A stretch of 64,000 nucleotides of DNA from Synechococcus sp. BSA11S (GTDB lineage Bacteria > Cyanobacteriota > Cyanobacteriia > PCC-6307 > Cyanobiaceae), in NCBI RefSeq assembly GCF_014224355.1, contig NZ_VNWP01000007.1, positions 62,001 to 126,000 of the forward strand, given 5' to 3'. The notes under the pieces are model-generated. The model was not told the origin of the DNA, made no database searches, and saw nothing but the letters and a program-made list of their open reading frames with translations. Shown piece by piece: positions 1 to 62,759 of the stretch; position 1 is the first letter of the stretch; each line of letters starts with the position of its first letter. Made by a program: the position numbers and the translations under genes.

Positions 1-967
1 GAAGGCGCCCTACATCGAAGACGTGAACCGCGTCGGCGAGTTTGATGTGGCGATCCTGGGGGTGCCCCACGATTCCGGCACCACCTACCGCCCCGGTACC
101 CGCTTCGGGCCCCAGGGCATCCGCCGCATTTCCGCCCTCTACACCCCCTACAACTACGAGATGGGGGTGGACCTGCGCGAGTCGATCAAGCTCTGCGACG
201 TCGGCGACATCTTCACGATTCCCGCCAACAACGAGAAGAGTTTCGATCAGATCTCCAAGGGCGTGGCGCATGTGTTCGCCAGTGGAGCTTTCCCGATCAT
301 CCTCGGTGGCGATCATTCGATCGGCTTCCCCACCGTGCGTGGCGTCTGCCGCCACCTGGGCGACAAGAAGGTGGGGATCATCCACTTCGATCGCCACGTC
401 GACACCCAGGAGATCGACCTCGACGAGCGCATGCACACCTGTCCCTGGTTCCATGCCACCAACATGGCCAATGCACCCGCACCGAACCTGGTGCAGCTGG
501 GGATCGGCGGCTGGCAGGTGCCGCGCGAGGGGGTGAAGGTCTGCCGGGAGCGGGGCACCAATGTGCTCACCGTGACCGACATCTGCGACATGGGCCTGGA
601 GGCGGCGGCCCAGTTCGCGATCGAGCGCGCCACCGATGGCACCGACTGCGTCTACATCTCCTTCGACATCGACTGCATCGACGCCGGCTTCGTGCCCGGC
701 ACAGGCTGGCCCGAGCCCGGGGGCCTGCTGCCCCGGGAGGCGCTGAAGCTGCTGGAGCTGATCGTGCGCAACGTGCCGGTCTGTGGCCTGGAGGTGGTGG
801 AGGTGTCGCCGCCCTACGACATCAGCGACATGACTTCGCTGATGGCCACCCGGGTGATCTGCGACACCATGGCCCACCTGGTGGTGAGCGGCCAGCTGCC
901 CCGCAAGGGGAAGCCCGCCTGGTTGCATGAGGCCTGCAACATGGCCGTCGATCAGGCCTGGAGGTGA
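1..967 (+). CDS. gdmH: Nickel-dependent guanidine hydrolase GdmH (ureohydrolase family), 5' end cut by the window
   Basis: Ureohydrolase (arginase/agmatinase) fold enzyme. The frame is open from base 2, so the GTG at 23 is probably internal and the N-terminus lies outside the window; about 321 codons are visible against roughly 390 residues in Synechocystis Sll1077. Metal-ligand motifs are visible: GGDHS, then DRHVD in place of the usual DAHxD, then SFDIDCID followed by PGTGWPEPGG. The next genes are HypA- and HypB-like nickel chaperones and a nitrate/taurine-type ABC importer, the order known around Sll1077, which was shown to be a Ni-dependent guanidine hydrolase making urea and ammonia. 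Function is therefore assigned by family plus context. Agmatinase is the alternative, but a separate, more typical SpeB lies at 25795-26721 beside spermidine synthase. Confidence 0.85.
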   Translation, partial: KAPYIEDVNRVGEFDVAILGVPHDSGTTYRPGTRFGPQGIRRISALYTPYNYEMGVDLRESIKLCDVGDIFTIPANNEKSFDQISKGVAHVFASGAFPIILGGDHSIGFPTVRGVCRHLGDKKVGIIHFDRHVDTQEIDLDERMHTCPWFHATNMANAPAPNLVQLGIGGWQVPREGVKVCRERGTNVLTVTDICDMGLEAAAQFAIERATDGTDCVYISFDIDCIDAGFVPGTGWPEPGGLLPREALKLLELIVRNVPVCGLEVVEVSPPYDISDMTSLMATRVICDTMAHLVVSGQLPRKGKPAWLHEACNMAVDQAWR

Positions 968-970
968 GCC

Positions 971-1363
971 ATGCATGAGGTCGACATGACCAAATGCCTG
1001 CTGCTCTCCCTGCAGGAGTGGAAGCAAGGGCATGAACCCCATACCCCCGTGGTTGAGGCCGTGCATCTGCAGGTGGGCGACTTCACCTGCGTGGAACCGG
1101 AGGCATTGCGATTCACCTTCGCCGCCGCCGTGCAGGGCACCTGGCTCGACGGCGCGACCCTCCAGATCGACACCGTGCCTCTGCGCGCCCGCTGCCTGGC
1201 CTGCTCAACCGTTTACGCCCCTGATCCGGAGCAGGCCTACCGCTCCCCCTGCTGCGATCGGCCCATGGAGGAGATCGTCAGCGGACGTGAGCTGCGCATC
1301 CGCACCGTCGACTACAGCCTGCCGGCTCAGGCCTCCGCTTCCGCCGCCCTTCCCTCGCGCTGA
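971..1363 (+). CDS. hypA: HypA-like nickel metallochaperone of the guanidine hydrolase operon
   Basis: 130 residues. The protein starts Met-His-Glu-Val, the N-terminal nickel site of HypA, and carries a zinc site of the form CLAC followed by SPCCDRP about 15 residues on. Classical HypA usually has two CxxC pairs; here the second pair is a CC dipeptide. A strong Shine-Dalgarno (GGAGG at 959-963, inside the end of the hydrolase gene) supports the ATG at 971. No hydrogenase genes are visible nearby, so it most likely serves the hydrolase rather than a NiFe hydrogenase (inference from context). Confidence 0.85.
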
Positions 1364-1367
1364 TCCC

Positions 1368-2072
1368 ATGCACATGCCTCTTCAGGACACGCTCGGCCTC
1401 AACCTGATGGCTGCCAATCAGCACCAGGCCGAGCACAACCGCGAGCACTTCGGCGCCTGGAATCTGCTCTGCCTCAACGTGATGAGCAGTCCCGGTGCCG
1501 GCAAGACCTCCCTGCTGGAGGTCACGATCACGGCGCTGGCTCCCCAGCTGGAGATGGCTGTGCTGGAGGGCGACATGACCACCCAGCTCGATGCCCAGCG
1601 CCTCGCGGCGGTGGGTGTGCCGGTGGTGCCGATCACCACCGGCCGGGCCTGCCACCTCGATGCCGCGATGGTGAGCGGTGGTCTGCGTCAGCTCCAGGCC
1701 CAGCTCAATCCGGCCACGCTCGACCTGCTCTGGGTGGAGAACGTCGGCAACCTGGTCTGTCCGGCTGAATTCGAGGTGGGCGAACATCTCAAAGTGGCCC
1801 TGCTGAGCGTCACCGAGGGCGACGACAAGCCGCTCAAGTATCCGGTGATGTTCCGTGAGGCCGATTGCGTGCTGATCACCAAGGTGGATCTGCTCCCGCA
1901 TCTGCCCGTGGCGGTGGAGCGGATCGAGGAACACATCCGCGCCGTCAACCCTGAAGCCGTGGTCTTTCAGGTGTCGGCCACCAGCGGCGCTGGGCTTGAG
2001 GCCTGGCACCAGTGGTTGCTCTCCACCACCCGGGAGCACAACCGCCGGGCCGTGCTGGCGGAGGTGGGATGA
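1368..2072 (+). CDS. hypB: HypB-like GTPase for nickel insertion
   Basis: 234 residues of the SIMIBI GTPase family. The P-loop reads [11 protein letters not shown], the G4 motif ITKVDL, and the nickel-binding switch region [13 protein letters not shown] carries the conserved Cys-Pro. It lacks the N-terminal CxxCGC nickel site and His-rich stretch of many hydrogenase HypB proteins and begins almost directly with the GTPase domain. The ATG at 1368 follows the hypA stop by 4 bp; the stop overlaps the next start (ATGA at 2069-2072). With hypA it probably delivers nickel to the upstream hydrolase. Another Met at 1374 is a possible start. Confidence 0.88.
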
Positions 2073-3403
2073 GCGTCCGGCAGCGCAAGCTCGACCTGGA
2101 CAGCCAGGGGGTGCGCTATGCCCTGGCCAGCTTCGTGGATCTGCACGGCACCAGCAAGGCCAAGGCGGTGCCGCTCGATCATTTCGAGGCGATGCTGCTT
2201 GGCTCCGAGCTGTTCACCGGGGCCGCCCTTGATGGCGTGCCCCAGGATGTCAGCGACGACGAGGTGGCCGCCATCCCCGATCTGGCCACAGCCACCGTGC
2301 TGCCCTGGCGCCGCGACGTGGTCTGGATGGCCAGCAGCCTCCAGCTGCATGGGGAGCCCTTCGAGGCCTGCAGCCGCAACATCCTGATCCGCTCCCTCGC
2401 CGAGGCGGGCCGGATGGGATTCCGCTTCAACCTCGGCATCGAGACTGAATTCTTCGTGCTGCGCCGTGGTGACGACGGCGTTCTCAAGCCGGCCAGCGCC
2501 CGCGACAACCTTGAGAAACCCTGCTACGACCTCGCCGGCCTGCTCGACAATCTGCCCTGGCTCGATGAGCTGGTCCAGGCGATGAATGATCTGGGCTGGG
2601 GGGTGTATTCCTTCGACCATGAAGATGGCAATGGCCAGTTCGAGACCGACTTCGCCTATGCGGAGGCTCTCACCATGGCGGATCGCCTCACCTTCTTCCG
2701 GTTGATGCTCAAGGAAATCACCCACCGCCATGGGTTGATCGCCAGTTTCATGCCCAAGCCCTTCAGTGATCGCACTGGAAGCGGAGCCCACCTCAACATG
2801 TCGCTGGCGGATCCTGCCACCGGCCGCAACCTGTTCACGGGTGCCCGGCCGGGCACCATCTCCCGCCTGGCGGAGCACTTCATTGCCGGCATCCTGCGCC
2901 ATGCGCCGGCGATCTGCGCCGTGATCGCCCCCACGGTGAACAGCTACAAGCGCCTGGTGGCCCAGGGCTCGATGAGTGGCTTCACCTGGGCGCCTGTGTT
3001 CATCTGCCACGGCAACAACAACCGCACCAACATGCTGCGGATTCCATCTGCTGCCGACCGGGTGGAGTGCCGTGCGGCCGACAGTGCCTGCAACCCCTAT
3101 CTCAGCGCGGCGATGATCCTCTCGGCCGGCCTGGAAGGGATCCGGGAGGAACTTGATCCAGGCGACCCCAATCTCGTCAACGCCTACCGGCTCAGCGCCG
3201 AGCAGCGAGCCGAGCGGGGGCTGAGGGTTCTGCCGAGAACCCTCGGAGAGGCGATCGAGGCCTTTGCCGCCGATCCGCTCTCCCGCTCGGTGTTCGGTGA
3301 TGCCATGGCCGAGGCGTTCATCGCCTACAAACGTGCCGAATGGGCCGACTATCACGGCTGCGTGTCGGAGTGGGAGCTGACGCGTTACCTCGAGTTCCTC
3401 TGA
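2069..3403 (+). CDS. Type III (GlnT-like) glutamine synthetase family protein
   Basis: 444 residues with GS architecture: an N-terminal beta-grasp region with [11 protein letters not shown], then the catalytic domain with IETEFF, a Glu-rich [10 protein letters not shown] metal site, [15 protein letters not shown] and a C-terminal [14 protein letters not shown] region. This matches the GlnT / gln_synth_III branch rather than the housekeeping GlnA. Those enzymes ligate glutamate to ammonia or small amines. Start ATG 2069 has GGAGG upstream and overlaps hypB by 4 bp, so translation is probably coupled. In context it would fix the ammonia released by guanidine hydrolysis; gamma-glutamylation of an amine or guanidino compound is the alternative. 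Confidence 0.85.
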
Positions 3404-3467
3404 GCCACCACCAAACGGTCTTCTCCCGCGCTTTGCTGCTTTGCCGCTTTTCTTTGCCGATCAACCG

Positions 3468-4547
3468 ATGACCTCCAATCAGCGCCCTGACCCCGCCTCC
3501 ACCGTCTCCTCGTCGAGCTCCGCTTCCCGCCCGCACCAGCAGACGCTCTCCCTGCGCAGGCCGCACCGTCTGCTCAGTTTCGGTCTGCTGGCGCTGCTCG
3601 CTGGGAGCCTGCTCGCCAGCTGCCAGAGCCCACAGCAGACGGAGGCGTCTCCAGTGCGGATCGGCTACAGCGCCTGGCCGGGTTGGATTCCCTGGAAGGT
3701 CACCGAGGAGAAGGGGTTGTTCGAGGCCGCCGGCGTGCCCGTGACCCTGCAGTGGTTCGATGGCTACCTGGATTCGATCAACGCCCTCAATGCCGGGCAG
3801 CTTGATTGCAACAGCCAGACCCTCAACGACACGATCAGTTCGATCGCAGGGGGCGCCGACCTGCGCGTGGTGCTCACCAACGACAACTCCACCGGCAATG
3901 ACCAGATCATTGCCGCCGAGGACATCACGGATGTGCCCCAGCTCAAGGGCCGCACGGTGGCCGCTGAGGAAGGCACCGTTGATCACTATCTGCTGCTGCT
4001 GGGTCTTGAGAAGGCGGGCCTCACGCCCGACGACATCAAGTTCGTGCCCCTGGAGACAGGCGCAGCTGCAGCGGCGTTCGTGGCCGAGAAGGTGGATGCC
4101 GTCGGTGTGTTCGCCCCCTTCACCACCCAGGCGCTCAAGCGGACCGGCAGCACCACCCTGTTCTCCTCCAAGGACTTCCCCGGCGCGATCAGTGATCACC
4201 TGGTCTGCCGCACGGAGTTCGTGGAGAAGAATCCCGAGCAGCTGCAGAAGGTGGTGAATGCCTGGTTCGCCACCCTCAAGGAGATCAAGTCGAACCCGGG
4301 CCCCAGCCTCACGATCCTGGCGGCCCGCGCTGGGGTGAGCGAGGCCGAATACAAGGACTACGACGCCGGCACCACGATCTTCACGCTCAAGCAGAACCGT
4401 GAGGCGCTCAAGCCGGGCACCACCATGGCTTCGCTGCCCTTTGCCGCCGGGGAGATCAGCAACTTCCTTCAGGAGGTGGGGCTGGCCGAGACACCGCCGG
4501 ATCTCACCAAGCTCTTTGACTCCCGCTTCGTCGACGCAGCCCCCTGA
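3468..4547 (+). CDS. ABC transporter substrate-binding lipoprotein (nitrate/taurine/guanidine type)
   Basis: 359 residues. A long, Ser-rich N-region is followed by a hydrophobic segment and the lipobox LLASC (Cys about residue 52), so it is predicted to be lipid-anchored outside the plasma membrane. The mature part opens with VRIGYSAWPGWIPWKVTEEK, typical of the NMT1/SsuA/TauA group. A TTG at 3441 could also start it; ATG 3468 is preferred. It precedes a matching permease and ATPase and follows the guanidine hydrolase and its chaperones, as in Synechocystis sll1080-1082, so guanidine or a guanidino compound is the likely substrate (inference). Confidence 0.85.
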   Translation: MTSNQRPDPASTVSSSSSASRPHQQTLSLRRPHRLLSFGLLALLAGSLLASCQSPQQTEASPVRIGYSAWPGWIPWKVTEEKGLFEAAGVPVTLQWFDGYLDSINALNAGQLDCNSQTLNDTISSIAGGADLRVVLTNDNSTGNDQIIAAEDITDVPQLKGRTVAAEEGTVDHYLLLLGLEKAGLTPDDIKFVPLETGAAAAAFVAEKVDAVGVFAPFTTQALKRTGSTTLFSSKDFPGAISDHLVCRTEFVEKNPEQLQKVVNAWFATLKEIKSNPGPSLTILAARAGVSEAEYKDYDAGTTIFTLKQNREALKPGTTMASLPFAAGEISNFLQEVGLAETPPDLTKLFDSRFVDAAP

Positions 4548-4556
4548 GCCCCCACC

Positions 4557-5333
4557 ATGCGTTCCTCCTCCTCCCTGGCCGGGGCCCTGCGTAATCCCTG
4601 GGTGCTCGGCCCGGTCGGGATCGCCTCGGTGCTGCTGATCTGGTCATTGATCAGCCTCAGCGGCACGGTCGATCCTCTCTTTCTGCCCAGCCCTCCGGCG
4701 GTCTGGCAGGCGGCCGCCGACCAGTTCCATGGGGGAATCCTGGTCACTGACGCGATCGCCAGCATTCAGCGGGTGTTCCTCGGCTTCGCCCTCTCGGCGG
4801 CCCTGGCCCTGCCCCTGGGGATCGCCATGGGCAGCAACCCGCTGATCTGCCGCCTGCTGGAGCCCCTGCTGGGCCTGATCCGCTACATGCCAGCCCCGGC
4901 CTTCATTCCCCTGCTGATCATCTACTTCGGCCTGGGGGAGTTGCCCAAGGTGCTGCTGATCTTCATCGGCACCTTTTTCTTCAACACGCTGATGATCATG
5001 GATGCGGTCAAATTCGTCCCCCAGGAGTTGCTGGAAACAGCCCTCACGCTCGGGGGGCGTGGGCTGCCGATTCTCACCCGCGTGGTGGCCCCGTACATCG
5101 CTCCCCAGGTGATCGATGCCTACCGCATCAACATGGCCTCAGCCTGGAATCTGGTGATCGTGGCGGAGCTGGTGGCCGCCAATGAGGGGTTGGGCAAGCG
5201 CATCAGCCTTGCCCAGCGCTTCCTGCGTACCGATGAGATCTTCGTCGGTTTGATCGTGATCGGCCTGATCGGCCTGCTGATTGATCTGGGCTTCCGCGCT
5301 TTGCTGCGCCGCAGTTGTCGCTGGGCCAGCTGA
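4557..5333 (+). CDS. ABC transporter permease, taurine/nitrate/guanidine family
   Basis: 258 residues, about six membrane segments, BPD_transp_1 family. The cytoplasmic coupling region reads ETALTLGGRGLPILTRVV, corresponding to the EAA loop that contacts the ATPase. It starts 9 bp after the substrate-binding protein and ends 1 bp before the ATPase start, so the three are clearly co-transcribed. It forms the membrane channel of the importer; substrate follows from the operon only. Confidence 0.87.
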   Translation: MRSSSSLAGALRNPWVLGPVGIASVLLIWSLISLSGTVDPLFLPSPPAVWQAAADQFHGGILVTDAIASIQRVFLGFALSAALALPLGIAMGSNPLICRLLEPLLGLIRYMPAPAFIPLLIIYFGLGELPKVLLIFIGTFFFNTLMIMDAVKFVPQELLETALTLGGRGLPILTRVVAPYIAPQVIDAYRINMASAWNLVIVAELVAANEGLGKRISLAQRFLRTDEIFVGLIVIGLIGLLIDLGFRALLRRSCRWAS

Positions 5334-5334
5334 G

Positions 5335-6102
5335 ATGCACCTATCCGTCAACGGCGTCAGCAAAACCTTCGGTGATGGCCGTCACGCCAAGTTGGTGCTC
5401 GACGACATCAGCTTTTCAATCAAGTCCGGTGAATTCGTGGCCCTGGTGGGCAGCTCCGGCTCGGGCAAGTCCACGGTGATGCGCCTGATCGCCGGTCTCG
5501 AACGCCCCAGCGCCGGGGTGATTGCCCTGGATGGCAAGTCGGTGGATGGGCCCGGCTCCGACCGGGGCATGGTCTTCCAGAAGTACAGCCTCTACCCCTG
5601 GATGACGGCGGCCCAGAACGTGGCCTTCGGCATGTCGCTGCAGGGGTTGCCCAGGGCCCTGGTGCGGGAGCGCACCGCCTACTTCCTGGAGGTGGTCGGC
5701 CTTCAGGATGCCGCCCGACGTCTGCCCAAGGAACTCTCCGGAGGCATGCAGCAGAGGGTGGCGATTGCCCGCGCCCTGGCCGCTGATCCCAAGGTGGTGC
5801 TGCTGGATGAACCCTTCGGGGCCCTCGACCTGCAGATCCGCGAAACGATGCAGGAGTTCCTCTACCAGCTCTGGCAGCGCTCGGGGATCACCGCTCTGCT
5901 GATCACCCACGACCTCGAGGAGGCCCTGCTGCTGGCCCAGCGGGTGCACATCATGGCGCCGAGGCCCGGGCGGATCGTGCGGACGGTGGAGGCGGACCTG
6001 GATCGCTCCAACCTGGCCCACCTCAGGGTGTCACCGCCGTTCCTGGAACTGCGCGAAGAGCTGGTCACCACCCTGCGCAACCTGGATGCTGCCGCCATCT
6101 GA
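5335..6102 (+). CDS. ABC transporter ATP-binding protein of the guanidine-type importer
   Basis: 255 residues. Walker A GSSGSGKST, Q-loop FQKYSLYPW, signature LSGGMQQR, Walker B VVLLDEPFGALD and H-loop LLITHDLEEA are all intact. The sequence resembles SsuB/TauB/NrtD ATPases. ATG 5335 lies one base after the permease stop and fits the usual N-terminus; the longer frame upstream is permease sequence. Provides the energy for the importer at 3468-5333. Confidence 0.9.
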   Translation: MHLSVNGVSKTFGDGRHAKLVLDDISFSIKSGEFVALVGSSGSGKSTVMRLIAGLERPSAGVIALDGKSVDGPGSDRGMVFQKYSLYPWMTAAQNVAFGMSLQGLPRALVRERTAYFLEVVGLQDAARRLPKELSGGMQQRVAIARALAADPKVVLLDEPFGALDLQIRETMQEFLYQLWQRSGITALLITHDLEEALLLAQRVHIMAPRPGRIVRTVEADLDRSNLAHLRVSPPFLELREELVTTLRNLDAAAI

Positions 6103-6112
6103 GGCTGGCGCC

Positions 6113-7210
6113 ATGGCCGATTCCGGGACTCCGTTCAGCCGGCGTCCGTTCCTGGAGGCCGAGCTCTACCGCTCGACAGCGGTGGCTGGACGGGAGCGGC
6201 AGCTCTACGCGCCCCGGTTCTGGCATCCGGTGGCCCCCCTGGCCAGCCTGCCGGAGGGCTCGGCGCTGGCCCTGGAGCTGCTGGATCTGCCCCTGCTGCT
6301 CTGCCATCCCCCCGGCGGTCCGCCGCGGGCCTTCATCAACCGCTGCCCCCACCGTGGGGTGGCTCTGCTTCCCCCGGCGGCGGCCGCCCAGACCTGCCGC
6401 CGCCTGGTCTGCCCATACCACGGCTGGACCTACGACCTGGACGGCCGACTGCGGGCCGCGGCCCGGGAGGGGGAGTTCACGGGAGCCTTCTCACGCCACG
6501 ACTGGCCCCTGATCGCTCTGGCCTCTGCCGTGCGCGGCTCGATGCTCTGGGTGGCGATCGGGCCCGATCCTCTGCCGCTGGAGCAGCAGCTGGATCTGGT
6601 GGAGCAGGAGCTGGGCGGGTCTCTGGAGCGGCCTCGGGTGCTGCTGGCCAGCCTGGAGAGCGAGCTGGCCTGCAACTGGAAGATCGCTCACGACAACACC
6701 CTCGACGACTACCACGTGGCCATCGCGCACCCCACCACCCTGCACCGCCAGCAGGGGCCGGTGCGTCTCTACCGCCATCGCTTCGCTGAGAACGCCAACC
6801 TGCTGGCCACGCCGGTTTCCAGCCCGGGTCGGAGCGAGCCAGCCAGAGCTACCGCCACAGCTGCGGCGACGGAGTTCCTCACCTTCGGGGCTCCGCCCTG
6901 GATCCATCTGCTCGCCTGGCCGGACGGCCGCCTGGCCCTGATCAGTTTTCCTCCCCTCGCTCAGGGCCGCTGCCGCCTGCAGGTGTGGCTGTTGGGGGAT
7001 CCGTCGCAGCGGCCCTACGGGCAGCGCTGGATCGAGGAGCTCCGCGCGTTTCTCGAGGAGGACCGGGCCCTGGTGGAGTCGGCCCAGCGGGGCTATGCCA
7101 GCGGCCTGACGCCCGGCCCGGCCCACCGGCTGGAGCGGCGGATCCTGCACCACCAGGCGCTCTATGCGCGGATCATGGAGCTGGAGCCGCCGCCACCAGC
7201 TCCTGCCTGA
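6113..7210 (+). CDS. Rieske (2Fe-2S) non-heme iron oxygenase, alpha-subunit type
   Basis: 365 residues. The N-terminal Rieske domain shows CPHRGVALL and, further on, CPYHGWTYD (both Cys-His pairs). The C-terminal catalytic domain has the iron-binding motif NTLDDYHVAIAH (Asp, two His). Such enzymes hydroxylate or N/O-demethylate small molecules using electrons from a reductase, none of which is encoded nearby. GAGG upstream supports ATG 6113; it is 10 bp after the ATPase and is the last gene of the operon. Substrate unknown; release of guanidine from N-methyl or other substituted guanidines is a context-based hypothesis. Its 3' end overlaps the convergent gene by 38 bp. Confidence 0.85.
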   Translation: MADSGTPFSRRPFLEAELYRSTAVAGRERQLYAPRFWHPVAPLASLPEGSALALELLDLPLLLCHPPGGPPRAFINRCPHRGVALLPPAAAAQTCRRLVCPYHGWTYDLDGRLRAAAREGEFTGAFSRHDWPLIALASAVRGSMLWVAIGPDPLPLEQQLDLVEQELGGSLERPRVLLASLESELACNWKIAHDNTLDDYHVAIAHPTTLHRQQGPVRLYRHRFAENANLLATPVSSPGRSEPARATATAAATEFLTFGAPPWIHLLAWPDGRLALISFPPLAQGRCRLQVWLLGDPSQRPYGQRWIEELRAFLEEDRALVESAQRGYASGLTPGPAHRLERRILHHQALYARIMELEPPPPAPA

Positions 7211-8027
7211 GCCAGGCGGCCATGGCCGTGTTGATCTGCAGCAGATCGGCCACGGGCTGGTTCGTGAAGGGAAGGGTGGGCAGGTAGCCGTCGGGGCCGA
7301 ATTCCGGGGTGAGCGTGATGTGCTCCATGCCGCGCTCTCGGGCACGATCGAGAAACAGCTGCCAGCAGGCCCGGTGGGCCGCCAGGGGCTCGGCGTGTTC
7401 GGGTGCGAACGGGTGGCCCACCTGGGGCCCCTGGGCATGCCCCACCCGGGCGTGGATGTGGTCCACCCGCTCAGCCATCGCCTGGATCGGCGCCAGATCC
7501 GGGGTCATCAGTCGCTCGCAGGCCACGCACCAGTGGCTGAGGTCGGCGGTGAGCCGCAGGTCCGGGTAGCGGCTGATCCAGTCCTGAATGCGCCAGGGGG
7601 TCGCCAGGCTGCGCGAACGGTGGGTTTCGAACGTCACCGGCGCCTGGGCCGCGGCGGCTAGCTCCAGCGCCCGATCCCAGAACCACTGTTGCTCCGCCCA
7701 GCTCCAGCTGTCGCTGCCGGTGATCACCGTGATCAGCAGCGGCTCGAGTCGGCGAGTGCGCTCCAGTTGGCCGGCCAGTTGATCCAGATGCTCTGCGGCT
7801 GTGATGGCGAGATCGGGCACGTAACCGTTGCCCGTGACCAGCTCCACGATCAGGCTGAGCTCGGCGGCTGTGAATTCAGCCATCACCGTGCCGGGATCAG
7901 CGCCTGCCAGGGCTGGATGGTCGAGGTTCGCCTCCACACCTTCGAAGCCGCTGTGGCGTGACTGGCGGATCGCCTCCTGCAGTCCCCCCTGGAATCCCCA
8001 GAGGCTGTGCAGGATCAGAGTCTGCAT
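7173..8027 (-). CDS. TIM-barrel sugar phosphate isomerase/epimerase-like protein
   Basis: 284 residues of the xylose-isomerase-like TIM barrel (AP endonuclease 2) superfamily. Features include GFEGVEANLD near the N-terminus, VTFETHRSRS, LTADLSHWC and HIHARVGHAQG, which carry the Glu, Asp and His typical of the metal site. ATG 8027 is preferred over the ATG at 8039 because GGGAGGG lies just upstream of it. Substrate unknown. It converges on the Rieske gene with a 38 bp overlap, so the two transcripts are antisense at their ends. Confidence 0.8.
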   Translation of the reverse strand: MQTLILHSLWGFQGGLQEAIRQSRHSGFEGVEANLDHPALAGADPGTVMAEFTAAELSLIVELVTGNGYVPDLAITAAEHLDQLAGQLERTRRLEPLLITVITGSDSWSWAEQQWFWDRALELAAAAQAPVTFETHRSRSLATPWRIQDWISRYPDLRLTADLSHWCVACERLMTPDLAPIQAMAERVDHIHARVGHAQGPQVGHPFAPEHAEPLAAHRACWQLFLDRARERGMEHITLTPEFGPDGYLPTLPFTNQPVADLLQINTAMAAWLRQELVAAAPAP

Positions 8028-8060
8028 GGACCCTCCCATGCGGTTGTGCTTGAAGAGGAT

Positions 8061-8258
8061 TCAGCGGCCGCTGGTGTGCTCAGGTGCTGCCGTGGTCTGC
8101 TCAGGTTCCAGAAGGTTGGGCTGGATGCCGAGGTAGACCGCCTCGCGGAACAGAGCATGGCGGGCGTCGGCATCCCCGCAGGCTCGGGCTTCGGCCATCC
8201 GTTGACGCAGGGAGAGCACCAGGGCCTGCTGGCGCGGTTCCAGGGTGGTGTGGGCCAT
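8061..8258 (-). CDS. Small conserved-looking hypothetical protein
   Basis: 65 residues from ATG 8258 (a longer frame starts at 8303). The sequence is polar with an N-terminal helix-rich half (MAHTTLEPRQQALVLSLRQR) and an acidic/Thr-rich tail. It lies 33 bp upstream of the isomerase-like gene on the same strand and probably shares its transcript. No family recognised. Confidence 0.5.
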   Translation of the reverse strand: MAHTTLEPRQQALVLSLRQRMAEARACGDADARHALFREAVYLGIQPNLLEPEQTTAAPEHTSGR

Positions 8259-8374
8259 GGCGGTCAGTCCTGCACCGGTGTTGCCCGGGCTTTGGAACTT
8301 CACTCTATCGAGCGCAGGCGAGGGTGGAAGTGAGTGAAGGCCCTGCTGGCGGGCTCTCGGTAAGGTGAGCGCGA

Positions 8375-8396
8375 GTTCGGCCTGAGAAGGCAGAAC
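8375..8396 (+). other. Hairpin in the 5' leader of the carbohydrate ABC operon
   Basis: GTTC-G-GCCT, loop GAGA, AGGC-A-GAAC: an 8 bp stem with one central G/A mismatch closed by a GNRA tetraloop, 58 bp before the ATG at 8454. A second weaker pairing (GGTGCCG with CGGCTACC) follows at about 8409-8432. Together they suggest a structured leader RNA. It matches no riboswitch class that I recognise. Confidence 0.35.
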
Positions 8397-8453
8397 CCAA
8401 CCGCCGAGGTGCCGAGAGCTCCCCGGCTACCAGGATGTTGGTGGAGGACGGGC

Positions 8454-9746
8454 ATGGGGCTGCGCAGCACCCTGCGGTACGCGGTCCTGGCTCTGCTGCT
8501 GGTTGGGTTGATCGCCGGCGGGGCGCTGTGGGCGCAACGGCGGCAGCCCGTGATCGTCACCGCGTTGATGCCGGCGCCGTTCGCTCAGGCCACCGAGCCG
8601 ATCGTGGCCACGTTCAACCGGACCCACCCGGACATCGAACTGAGGGTGAACAGGGGCCCCTTCGAGACCGAATCCATCTCCGATCTGGCGATCAGCAGTC
8701 TGCTGCTGGGGGACAGCCCCTACGACCTGCTGCTGATGGATGTCACCTGGACGCCGAAGTACGCCGCCGCCGGCTGGCTGGCGCCCCTGGAGCCCCTGCT
8801 GGGGGAGGACGCCCTCGCAGGGGTGGTGCCGGGCGCCCAGGAGGGCAACCGCTTCGACGGTCACCTCTGGCGCATCCCCCTGGTGGCCGACATGGGGCTG
8901 CTCTACTGGCGCACCGATCTGATGGCGGCGCCACCGCGCACTCCCGATGAGCTGATGGCCACGGCCAGCCGGTTGCAGCGCTCAGGGCGCGTGCGCTGGG
9001 GCTACGTGTGGCAGGGCCGTCAGTATGAGGGACTGAGCTGTGTGTTTCTCGAGGTGCTGCGGGCCTTCGGCGGGCAGTGGCTCACGGACTCAGGCGATCG
9101 GGTGGAGCTGGGAAACCCGGGTGGGGTGGCCGCGGCCTCCTGGCTGCGCCAGCTGATCGATCGGGGCATCACGCCCCGGGCGGTGGCGAATTTCGCCGAA
9201 CCGGAGGCGCTGCAGAGCTTCGAGGCCGGGGATGTCGCCCTGATGCGCAACTGGCCCTATGCCTGGGCCGAGCTGCAGAAACCCGGCAGCAAGGTCAGAG
9301 GAAAGGTGGGCGTCACCACCATGGTGGCCACGTCCGAGGGCGCCACAGCCGCCACCCAGGGCAGCTGGGGATTCTCCCTGGTGAGCCAGAGCCCTCATCC
9401 CCGCGAGGCCGCGCTGGTGATTGCGGCTCTCACGTCGCCGGAGGTTCAGAAGGACCTGGCCAGGCGTCTGGGCTACACCCCCACCCTCTCGGCCCTGTTC
9501 GAGGATCCGGAGCTGGTGGCGGCGAACCCGGTGCTGCCGGAGTTGCGCCGGGCCCTTGATCACACCGTGCTGCGTCCGCTCAGCCCGCTCTACGCCCAGC
9601 TCAGCGACATCCTGCAGCGGCAGCTCAGCGAGGTGATCACCGGCGAGCGTCAGGCCCCCGCGGCCATGGAGCGGGCCCAGAGGCTCAGCAACCAGGTGTT
9701 GCGGGCCAGCGGTGTGGGAACCAGCGCCGTGGAGGCGACGCCATGA
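8454..9746 (+). CDS. Carbohydrate ABC transporter substrate-binding protein (MalE/GgtB-like)
   Basis: 430 residues, family 1 extracellular solute-binding protein. One N-terminal hydrophobic segment (residues about 9-25) without a lipobox Cys suggests a signal anchor or Sec signal. The mature part has EPIVATFNRTHPDIELRV and DLLLMDVTWTPKYAAAGWL, typical of sugar binders. A GGAGG at 8442-8446 fixes ATG 8454. It overlaps the first permease by 4 bp. Gene order binder-permease-permease-ATPase resembles the cyanobacterial ggtBCD glucosylglycerol/sucrose/trehalose importer; the substrate cannot be read from sequence. Confidence 0.85.
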   Translation: MGLRSTLRYAVLALLLVGLIAGGALWAQRRQPVIVTALMPAPFAQATEPIVATFNRTHPDIELRVNRGPFETESISDLAISSLLLGDSPYDLLLMDVTWTPKYAAAGWLAPLEPLLGEDALAGVVPGAQEGNRFDGHLWRIPLVADMGLLYWRTDLMAAPPRTPDELMATASRLQRSGRVRWGYVWQGRQYEGLSCVFLEVLRAFGGQWLTDSGDRVELGNPGGVAAASWLRQLIDRGITPRAVANFAEPEALQSFEAGDVALMRNWPYAWAELQKPGSKVRGKVGVTTMVATSEGATAATQGSWGFSLVSQSPHPREAALVIAALTSPEVQKDLARRLGYTPTLSALFEDPELVAANPVLPELRRALDHTVLRPLSPLYAQLSDILQRQLSEVITGERQAPAAMERAQRLSNQVLRASGVGTSAVEATP

Positions 9747-12427: not shown

Positions 12428-13249
12428 CTAGCGCAACACCGACTCCAGTTCGTCCAGCCAGAGGTCCGGCAGGTTCCAGTGGCGAGCTCCGCGCAGGATG
12501 GTCCGGGCGTAGTCGCCCCCGGCCCTCAGCCCCGTGGCGCTCCAGGCGGGTGTGGGCACGTAGGTGAGGGCCTCGAGGTGCTCGCCTGCGCTGGTGGTGA
12601 CCAGGACCCGCTGGTGCTGGTAATGACCGATCGCCACGCCTTCGCAGCGATCAAGCGTGGCCCGATCTCCCGGGCTGTGGTGCTGCACCACCCCCCAGCA
12701 GTGGGCGCCGGGTTCAGGCTCGAGGCCTGCGGCCCCCTCCCCCGGGGGGCGGCCCAGCCGCCGCTTGTTGATCCGCCAGCGCCACCCCTCCAGCCGCGCC
12801 ACCAGTCCGCTGCCGTCCCAGCCGGGACAGCGGCGCCCCAGCTGGGTCGGGCAGAGGTTGGAGCCGTAGCTGAACACCGGCGTGCTGCCCCAGTCTCCGA
12901 AGGGCACCAGCGGCAGGCCGAGCACCTGCTCCCGGCGGCCCAGGTACACCCAGGCCCGGCTCCCGTCGCTCAGGCGCCAGCGCTGGCGGAGGTACTCGCG
13001 GGGGACGTCTTCGAGCTGATCGAGCCGAGCCAGGCCGCTGGCCTCCAGCGCGAACAGCTCCCCATGGATCAGGGCCGCCGCTTCCGGTTTCGGCTCAGCG
13101 GGGGCGGCCACCGCCATCGGGTACGGGCCCAGGTCGTGCAGCCGGGCACCGTGCAGACGCCGTCGCCCGAGGAAGCGCCCCCCCCTCAACCAGTGGTGGT
13201 TGGGTCCCCCCCGCTTCAGGCTCCCGTAAACGAAGACGAGCTCGGGCAT
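12428..13249 (-). CDS. Protein with two gamma-glutamylcyclotransferase-like domains
   Basis: 273 residues. The N-terminal half begins FVYGSLKRGG, the substrate loop of the AIG2/GGACT-like family, followed by LDQLEDVPREYL (a likely acidic catalytic region). The C-terminal half begins VFSYGSNLCPTQL, the loop of the GGCT/ChaC-like group, with CEGVAIGHYQHQRV later. Both halves keep the YGS(L/N) signature, so this is a head-to-tail fusion of two related domains. Possible role in gamma-glutamyl peptide or gamma-glutamylamine breakdown; substrate unknown. Last gene of a - strand run starting at 17513. Confidence 0.75.
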   Translation of the reverse strand: MPELVFVYGSLKRGGPNHHWLRGGRFLGRRRLHGARLHDLGPYPMAVAAPAEPKPEAAALIHGELFALEASGLARLDQLEDVPREYLRQRWRLSDGSRAWVYLGRREQVLGLPLVPFGDWGSTPVFSYGSNLCPTQLGRRCPGWDGSGLVARLEGWRWRINKRRLGRPPGEGAAGLEPEPGAHCWGVVQHHSPGDRATLDRCEGVAIGHYQHQRVLVTTSAGEHLEALTYVPTPAWSATGLRAGGDYARTILRGARHWNLPDLWLDELESVLR

Positions 13250-61727: not shown

Positions 61728-62759
61728 ATGAAGGCGATGGTGCTCGAGAACTGCTGCGACATGGAGCGCAATCCATCGCCGCTCGTGCTGATGGACCTTC
61801 CACGGCCGGTGCCGGGGACGGGCGAATTGCTGGTGAAGGTATCGGTCTGCGGGGTGTGCCACACCGAACTCGATGAGATCGAGGGGCGCACGCCACCCCC
61901 TCGGTTTCCCGTGATTCCGGGGCATCAGATCGTGGGCAGGGTGGTGGACACAGGCCCGGAGTGCGGACTCTTCCGCCCTGGGGATGCGGTGGGCATCGCC
62001 TGGATCTTCCAGGCCTGCGGCAGCTGTGGCTTCTGCCGCTCCGGCCGGGAGAATCTCTGCCGGGCCTTCGTGGCCACGGGCCGTGACGCGAACGGCGGCT
62101 ACGCCGACTATGTGACCGTGCCGGAGGCCTTCGCCCATGCCCTGCCTGGGGATCTGGAGGCGGAGGCGATCGCGCCGATGCTCTGCGCCGGCGCGATCGG
62201 CTACAGGTCGCTGCGGCTGAGCGGCCTGAAGGACGGCCAGGATCTGGGGCTCACCGGCTTCGGTGCGTCGGCCCACCTGGTGCTGCCGATGGTGCGTCAG
62301 CGGTTCCCGGCCTCGCGGGTGTTCGTGTTCGCCCGCAGCGAACGGGAGCGGGCCTTCGCCCTGGAGCTGGGGGCCGCCTGGGCCGGTGCCACCGAGGCGG
62401 AGTCGCCCGTGAAGCTCCATGCCGTGATCGACACCACGCCGGCCTGGACGCCGGTGGTGGCCGCGCTGAAGTGCCTGCACCCGGGAGGCCGGCTGGTGAT
62501 CAATGCGATCGGCAAACAGGAGGCCGACAAGGCGGCCCTGCTGCGGCTCGACTATCCCCGCGACCTGTGGATGGAGAAGGAGATCCGATCGGTGGCCAAC
62601 GTGACGCGTGAGGATGTGCGGGAGTTCCTGGCGCTGGCCGCCGTCGCCAGGATCCGTCCCACGGTGCAGGCCTTCCCCCTGGCGGAGGCCAACACGGCTC
62701 TGCAGCAACTGCGCTCCGGCGCGGTGCGCGGGGCGAAGGTGCTGCGGATCGGTGCGTGA
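61728..62759 (+). CDS. Zinc-dependent alcohol dehydrogenase
   Basis: 343 residues from ATG 61728. Catalytic zinc site VCGVCHTEL and GHQIVGRV; structural zinc site CGSCGFCRSGRENLC; nucleotide loop GLTGFGASAHL instead of the usual GxGxxG. Resembles the AdhA/YjgB-type MDR group acting on aldehydes/alcohols. The frame to 61644 upstream is not supported; 61500-61727 holds no gene. Overlaps the next gene by 4 bp. Confidence 0.87.
   Translation: MKAMVLENCCDMERNPSPLVLMDLPRPVPGTGELLVKVSVCGVCHTELDEIEGRTPPPRFPVIPGHQIVGRVVDTGPECGLFRPGDAVGIAWIFQACGSCGFCRSGRENLCRAFVATGRDANGGYADYVTVPEAFAHALPGDLEAEAIAPMLCAGAIGYRSLRLSGLKDGQDLGLTGFGASAHLVLPMVRQRFPASRVFVFARSERERAFALELGAAWAGATEAESPVKLHAVIDTTPAWTPVVAALKCLHPGGRLVINAIGKQEADKAALLRLDYPRDLWMEKEIRSVANVTREDVREFLALAAVARIRPTVQAFPLAEANTALQQLRSGAVRGAKVLRIGA

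Follow-up and report, generated by a model that had tools for sequence, protein, structure and literature searches.

What does a Rieske oxygenase do at the end of a guanidine-degradation operon? The question is raised by Synechococcus sp. BSA11S, of which we analysed a stretch of 64,000 nucleotides (hereafter the window; positions 62,001 to 126,000 of contig NZ_VNWP01000007.1). An earlier sequence-only reading of the window had drawn attention to a Rieske oxygenase gene and proposed that its product might release guanidine from substituted guanidines. A Rieske gene (CK_00002251) was reported in 2023 downstream of the guanidinase cluster in most of the cluster-bearing Synechococcus and Cyanobium, and the passages of that paper dealing with the gene propose no substrate, reaction or partner gene for it (PMC10119275). 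Judging by its description, CK_00002251 presumably belongs to the same family as the gene in the window. According to the same paper, the guanidinase cluster of Synechocystis sp. PCC 6803 has no such gene. In the open-licence literature we found no functional study linking a Rieske oxygenase to guanidine; one paper retrieved in that connection (PMC12342949) is unrelated, judging from its excerpt.

The gene in question encodes the 365-aa alpha subunit of a Rieske non-heme iron oxygenase (6113..7210, plus strand), as indicated by Pfam, an AlphaFold2 model and fold matches. The window opens within gdmH, the guanidine hydrolase gene (1..967, plus strand, with its 5' end beyond the window), recognised by sequence matches and by a Guanidine-I riboswitch upstream. 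It is followed, on the same strand, by hypA for a nickel chaperone (971..1363; TIGR00100, at its cut-off), hypB for a nickel insertion GTPase (1374..2072; TIGR00073), a type III glutamine-synthetase-like gene of uncertain start (2072..3403; TIGR03105, 550 bits against a cut-off of 469.6) and the genes of an ABC importer. The latter comprise the substrate-binding protein (3441..4547; SsuA family above the cut-off, 'uca' family below it) and, by family-profile matches, the permease (4557..5333) and the ATPase (5338..6102). The ATPase stop codon ends at 6102, leaving the 10 bp gap before the Rieske gene that had been described from the sequence. An alternative in-frame ATG exists at 6086; the start at 6113 is favoured because the alignment of relatives supports it.

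The riboswitch itself lies some 270-390 bp before base 1 of the window (flanking locus L060, 3615-3736) and stops 26 bases short of the probable start codon of gdmH. Of 15 gdmH loci examined, 11 yielded Guanidine-I; the element heads eight of the 11 examined operons that carry both gdmH and the Rieske gene. It was not found at L072, L074 and L145, where the Rieske gene lies in the gdmH operon, nor at L173, nor at the Rieske loci away from gdmH (L172, L174 and L176); L072 and L145, the latter from Prochlorococcus, yielded none even at a looser E of 0.5. Riboswitch control of gdmH operons is common, not universal.

The sequence-only reading had also stated that neither aromatic-degradation genes nor a reductase are encoded nearby. 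Both statements held among the genes scanned: in 10 genes of 23-9743 (E up to 1e-3) and 30 of the larger ORFs between 12431 and 62756 (E up to 1e-6), Pfam recognised no aromatic-degradation or oxygenase-reductase gene. Likewise, YeaX, HcaD and HcaC of E. coli gave no tblastn match in the window at E 0.01.

The glutamine-synthetase-like gene deserves a separate word. To judge from the window and from loci L063, L067, L070 and L072, it is an optional part of the operon, and it is broken in two relatives (G006 and G008). Considered as a partner of the Rieske gene it was rejected, since it does not track the latter: the operons of G032 and of Prochlorococcus-type loci yielded no such gene, and it is present without the Rieske gene in G031, where it is intact, and in G047. 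Glutamylation of an amine, or plain assimilation of ammonia, may be the role of its product. A gamma-glutamylamine-cyclotransferase-like (GGACT/AIG2) gene (12431-13249, minus strand), found about 5 kb downstream of the operon, is an odd neighbour for a gamma-glutamyl-ligase-like gene.

As the earlier reading held, both metal sites of the oxygenase are intact. The open 365-codon frame matches the Pfam families Rieske (1.6e-14) and Ring_hydroxyl_A (7.9e-17). The CxH...CxxH cluster motif of Rieske oxygenase alpha subunits is complete (C78-x-H80...C100-x2-H103; 6344..6421, plus strand); in a 47-row alignment C78, H80 and C100 never vary, and the conservation of H103 is at least 90%. H80 and C100 are spaced by 19 residues; typical members have 15-17 residues between the two halves of the motif. 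The mononuclear iron motif D198-D199-Y-H201-V-A-I-A-H206 (6704..6730, plus strand) supplies the bridging carboxylate and two histidine ligands and aligns with E205/C206/H208/H213 of the carnitine oxygenase CntA, while the third ligand, D317 (7061..7063, plus strand), aligns with CntA D323; the 2-His-1-carboxylate site is thus present in the profile alignment. Three residues before the first histidine, both the window protein and the rows from picocyanobacteria have D198 as the bridging carboxylate. A sub-clade with the motif DNTLCDYH (L074, L080, L174, L176 and L178-L180) has cysteine at that position, and Asp199 stays invariant there. Asp199 occurs in 99 of 101 family rows, which include the window sequence and some loci fetched twice, and the remaining two rows do not cover the position. 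At one locus, L099, only a 9-residue reading frame was recovered at the Rieske match, and this locus was counted by its tblastn match alone. The idea that Asp199 is a unique guanidinium anchor was weakened by one cyanobacterial paralogue outside the family that also has Asp there.

These sites bear on a loose suggestion of the 2023 eCAG paper, according to which the Rieske Fe-S protein would be a cofactor protein of the guanidinase system; the relevant passage takes the Fe-S protein to suggest iron as the cofactor of that system (PMC10119275). Against it stand the catalytic domain with its complete iron site and the oxygenase fold; moreover GdmH, being a hydrolase, needs no electrons. We regard this explanation as highly improbable.

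What, then, are the nearest relatives of the enzyme? The AlphaFold2 model (47 aligned rows, pLDDT 89.6, pTM 0.89) has, by structure search, the fold of Rieske oxygenase alpha subunits. The nearest fold to this predicted model is that of CntA (6zgp_F; Z 34.8, rmsd 2.5, 334 residues, 24% identity), which is also the best PDB profile match (2.3e-36). It is followed by the stachydrine demethylase Stc2 (4qur; Z 32.5), terephthalate dioxygenase (Z 32.1) and the naphthalene and biphenyl dioxygenases (Z around 30). More distant (Z around 21) are SxtT and GxtA, saxitoxin hydroxylases that act on guanidinium-bearing substrates. The fold and profile matches, with CntA nearest, support kinship to the C-N-cleaving Rieske enzymes of quaternary ammonium compounds. 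Stc2 and GbcA likewise are Rieske enzymes acting on such compounds; however, the ECYHC motif of Stc2 reads DDYHV in the window protein. GbcA is the top NCBIfam match, but the score of 67 bits, where the cut-off is 670, shows that the window protein is not GbcA.

Residues of CntA were mapped onto the window protein through a profile alignment (identity about 24%) rather than through coordinates, with CntA numbered as the chain index minus 20, which brings published residue names into register. Like CntA/YeaW, the window protein has the same iron ligands (Asp323 is Asp317) and keeps the pocket residues Tyr225, Phe258 and Phe319 as Tyr220, Phe255 and Phe313. Unlike CntA, it has Asp198 in place of the bridging Glu205, Asp199 and Val202 in place of the Cys206/Cys209 pair, Thr196 in place of the pi-cation residue Tyr203, and leucines (Leu267 and Leu289) in place of both carboxylate binders, Asn270 and Tyr295. 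A Cys-X-X-Cys pair around the first histidine is described for some Group V members (PMC10952381); neither this pair nor the bridging glutamate of Group V is present in the window protein.

In phylogeny, trees with and without far outgroups differed. In a tree of 39 rows the family forms its own clade (99/98), apart from YeaW, the one characterised Group V reference. When the far outgroups, HcaE and the cyanobacterial paralogues L018, L019 and L025, were included (43 rows), the family no longer came out as a single clade. Both trees used 32 of the 101 family rows; three outgroup rows with a misassigned ORF (L015, L016 and L026) were left out, and seven more of the 15 paralogue loci gave no ORF of usable length. 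The comparison with N-dealkylating Rieske enzymes that had been called for places the family, against a thin reference set, outside the YeaW clade and not within a group of known, unrelated substrate. A CntB/YeaX-type reductase does not accompany the oxygenase either: YeaX has only partial matches in the genome, to its C-terminal residues 232-315 and none of them on the window's contig, no full-length copy was found in the genome, and none was detected at E 1e-4 in the best 80 of 144 related loci. No dedicated reductase having been found, we assume that a general ferredoxin donates the electrons.

The association of the oxygenase with guanidine metabolism extends well beyond this genome. Strong Rieske matches (E 2e-46 or better, the next match being at 1.2e-24) were found in 12 of 60 relatives; in 11 of these the gene follows the ATPase of the importer within the gdmH operon, and in the twelfth (G045) the two halves are found at two contig ends, with the same neighbours. 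A wider scan of contigs, from which the best 80 of 144 loci were kept, gave a similar picture: 79 of these 80 have the importer ATPase gene just ahead of the Rieske gene and 69 have gdmH upstream, every locus without an upstream ATPase or gdmH is a contig end, and the gap between ATPase and Rieske gene ranges from -49 to 45 bp (median 3 bp). Cyanobacterial titles are borne by 78 of these best 80. The other two, L111 and L139, come from public MAGs titled Bifidobacterium breve and Acidiferrobacteraceae that carry the same cyanobacterial operon and are probably mislabelled or contaminated bins. None of 16 pattern matches on viral contigs encodes a relative, and the matches in 87 plasmid records all fall below 60% identity (22-33% among the 40 matches listed).

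Across 386 cyanobacterial genomes, gdmH was detected in 58 (E 1e-120) and the Rieske gene in 19 (E 1e-60), all 19 falling within the 58. The probability of this overlap arising by chance is 1.3e-17 by genome and 5e-6 by genus, kinship not being corrected for. By coordinates, the starts of the two genes lie within about 6.2 kb of each other in 15 of the 19 carriers. In G384 they are on different contigs of a 240-contig assembly, and in three further carriers they are unlinked. One of these, G366, has an importer-Rieske-TIM-barrel block about 160 kb from gdmH; genes for a Nit6803-type nitrilase and an MSMEG_0569-type flavoprotein are found close to this block (L172, 14691-17670). In the second, G115, the Rieske gene belongs to a second importer operon (L174, 7363-11906) together with a cysteine-hydrolase-superfamily gene, whose best NCBIfam match is biuret amidohydrolase, far below the cut-off, and the gdmH operon, with its own importer, is on another contig. 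This second operon is a hint of a related ureido or guanidino substrate. In the third, G221, no importer gene was found beside the Rieske gene (L176, 8179-10165), gdmH is on another contig, and about 170 bp upstream of the Rieske gene lies a gene without an NCBIfam match, which we take to be heme-oxygenase-like. That the Rieske gene stands beside an importer in G366 and G115, despite its distance from gdmH there, makes import of its substrate probable.

Such dispersed loci raise the possibility that the oxygenase acts on some other imported nitrogen compound (an amine, a sulfonate or a ureido compound), merely sharing the importer, and that guanidine is not its product. The second importer operon of G115 with its cysteine-hydrolase-superfamily gene, the location of the gene away from any importer in G221 and the membership of the binding proteins in the SsuA/TauA family would all be in keeping with this. 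Nevertheless, it would leave unexplained why every Rieske carrier in the phylum sample also has gdmH and why most of the examined gdmH-Rieske operons begin with a guanidine riboswitch, and we consider it doubtful. The link to guanidine metabolism proposed by the earlier reading is strong, both by operon position and by co-occurrence with gdmH.

Which guanidino compound might be the substrate? CntA is described as oxidising carnitine and gamma-butyrobetaine and as releasing trimethylamine from carnitine (PMC10952381, PMC7948474), with the substrate ammonium pointing at C206 (PMC10952381). By analogy, the same reaction on an R-CH2-guanidine would release guanidine. With two polar residues gone from the carnitine pocket, and with an invariant acid at the position to which the ammonium points in CntA, the alignment suggests a small cation without a carboxylate. 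One alternative is a guanidino acid such as 4-guanidinobutyrate, whose hydroxylation at C4 would yield guanidine and succinic semialdehyde, with no formaldehyde. It would fit the nearest fold, as CntA acts on gamma-butyrobetaine, the trimethylammonium analogue, and also the distribution of FrmA-type glutathione-dependent formaldehyde dehydrogenase, which was not found in 10 of the 23 Rieske carriers searched. However, the replacement of both carboxylate binders of CntA by leucine makes a guanidino acid less likely than a guanidine with an uncharged alkyl group, and we judge it unlikely. Hence, of the substrates proposed in the sequence-only reading, the link to guanidine stands and the guanidino acids have lost ground.

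We therefore return to an alkylguanidine, for which the specificity of the downstream enzyme offers a rationale. According to the relevant section of a study of a comammox guanidinase, no urea formation by that enzyme could be detected with guanidino compounds, those of the methylguanidine type among them, in agreement, as the authors see it, with the enzyme of cyanobacteria (PMC11410670). With a guanidinase inactive on methylguanidine-type compounds, a preceding dealkylating step would make sense. FrmA was detected in 13 of 23 Rieske carriers versus 5 of 25 non-carriers. Its absence from the ten remaining carriers speaks against a release of formaldehyde there, unless these have another way of dealing with it; otherwise the leaving group is not a methyl.

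Sequence, structural model and analogy taken together, we put forward, at even confidence for and against, that the Rieske enzyme is an N-dealkylase of an imported alkylguanidine, in the simplest case methylguanidine, supplying guanidine to GdmH in a riboswitch-controlled operon. Guanidine and a substituted guanidine would both enter through the importer. With electrons from a general plant-type ferredoxin, the Rieske enzyme would hydroxylate the carbon on a guanidino nitrogen (most simply the methyl of methylguanidine) to give a hemiaminal such as N-(hydroxymethyl)guanidine. The hemiaminal would break up, slowly if unaided and more quickly with the help of a second protein, to release guanidine and an aldehyde, and GdmH would convert guanidine into urea and ammonia.

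A candidate for this second protein is encoded immediately downstream. The convergent gene at 7173..8039 (minus strand), whose 3' end overlaps that of the Rieske gene by 38 bp, codes for a 288-aa xylose-isomerase-like TIM barrel; we regard it as a candidate second-step enzyme on the strength of PF01261, its fold and its co-occurrence and co-loss with the Rieske gene. It matches PF01261 at 9e-07 (29.3 bits, just below the cut-off of 31.1), and a PDB sequence search gave nothing better than E 0.42. The fold is that of the epimerase/lyase superfamily (tagatose-epimerase/IolE/endonuclease IV; Z around 20), in which no specific function can be read because many epimerases, isomerases and hydratases score near-equal Z. 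Four residues are invariant, E138, D166, H196 and E246, and we take them to resemble the metal ligands of the superfamily's epimerases.

The TIM barrel tracks the Rieske gene in Synechococcus and Cyanobium. At E 1e-30 it occurs in 14 of the 386 cyanobacterial genomes, all among the 19 Rieske carriers; no sampled carrier from the window's taxonomic family lacks it. Among the best 80 of 144 loci, tblastn matches were obtained in 53; these are 53 of the 56 loci L089-L144, the exceptions (L101, L112 and L115) being contigs of 4-9 kb, whereas none of the 24 Prochlorococcus-type loci gave a match. Nor was one found in five Prochlorococcus-type genomes searched, some of them small and perhaps incomplete. 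In two relatives from the window's genus it has been lost or broken together with the Rieske gene: G006 has neither gene, and in G008 the TIM-barrel gene is broken by an internal gap (its longer piece retaining 93% DNA identity), with no Rieske remnant found beside the importer. Three further genomes (G016, G031 and G412) have gdmH and lack both. Outside the window's family, G045 has the TIM-barrel gene immediately after the Rieske gene, in the same orientation, and in the other six of seven carriers (G037, G108, G115, G171, G221 and G410) no TIM barrel was found. The TIM barrel is thus coupled to the Rieske gene, yet it can be dispensed with.

A precedent for such a pair is provided by MgdH/MgdL of Vreelandella (Sinn et al. 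2025), described as demethylating methylguanidine from within a guanidine-riboswitch operon; the hydroxylated methylguanidine is reported to be unexpectedly stable, its break-up being sped up by the second protein (PMC12508155). As in the window, an oxygenase and a partner are encoded beside an ABC importer in a guanidine-degrading riboswitch operon, and the reaction we propose would be the same. The components, however, differ: MgdH is a 2-oxoglutarate/Fe(II) dioxygenase and MgdL a lyase modelled as a beta-barrel, whereas the pair in the window, being neither, consists of a Rieske enzyme and a TIM barrel; and the guanidine made by MgdH/MgdL feeds a guanidine carboxylase rather than a guanidine hydrolase. 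On the strength of this analogy we propose that the window's system would be the Rieske counterpart of MgdH/MgdL, and infer that its TIM barrel would perform the hemiaminal-splitting step. A hemiaminal that is long-lived without a second protein would offer a ready reason why some lineages retain the partner and slow growers lose it. Tentatively, one may go further and picture a two-enzyme pathway for substituted guanidines in picocyanobacteria that evolved independently of MgdH/MgdL, with a ferredoxin-fed Rieske N-alkyl hydroxylase and a metal-dependent TIM barrel that splits the hemiaminal, a scheme to which we attach rather low confidence.

We know of no earlier Rieske enzyme that releases guanidine. 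The source of free guanidine in nature is called an open question in the relevant part of a 2025 review (PMC12186494), and the producers of guanidine that the MgdH paper names in its introduction belong to the 2-oxoglutarate enzymes (PMC12508155). If the reading preferred here is correct, the enzyme would be, as far as is known, the first guanidine-releasing Rieske enzyme, and a gene noted earlier but left unexplained would gain a function. Methylated guanidines would then be a nitrogen source for cyanobacteria of lakes and of the ocean surface, so that a new enzyme class and a new nitrogen source would be added to the biology of the very abundant Synechococcus, Cyanobium and Prochlorococcus. 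In many freshwater and marine cyanobacteria, the iron enzyme of the guanidine cluster probably strips a side group from substituted guanidines, turning them into nitrogen food.
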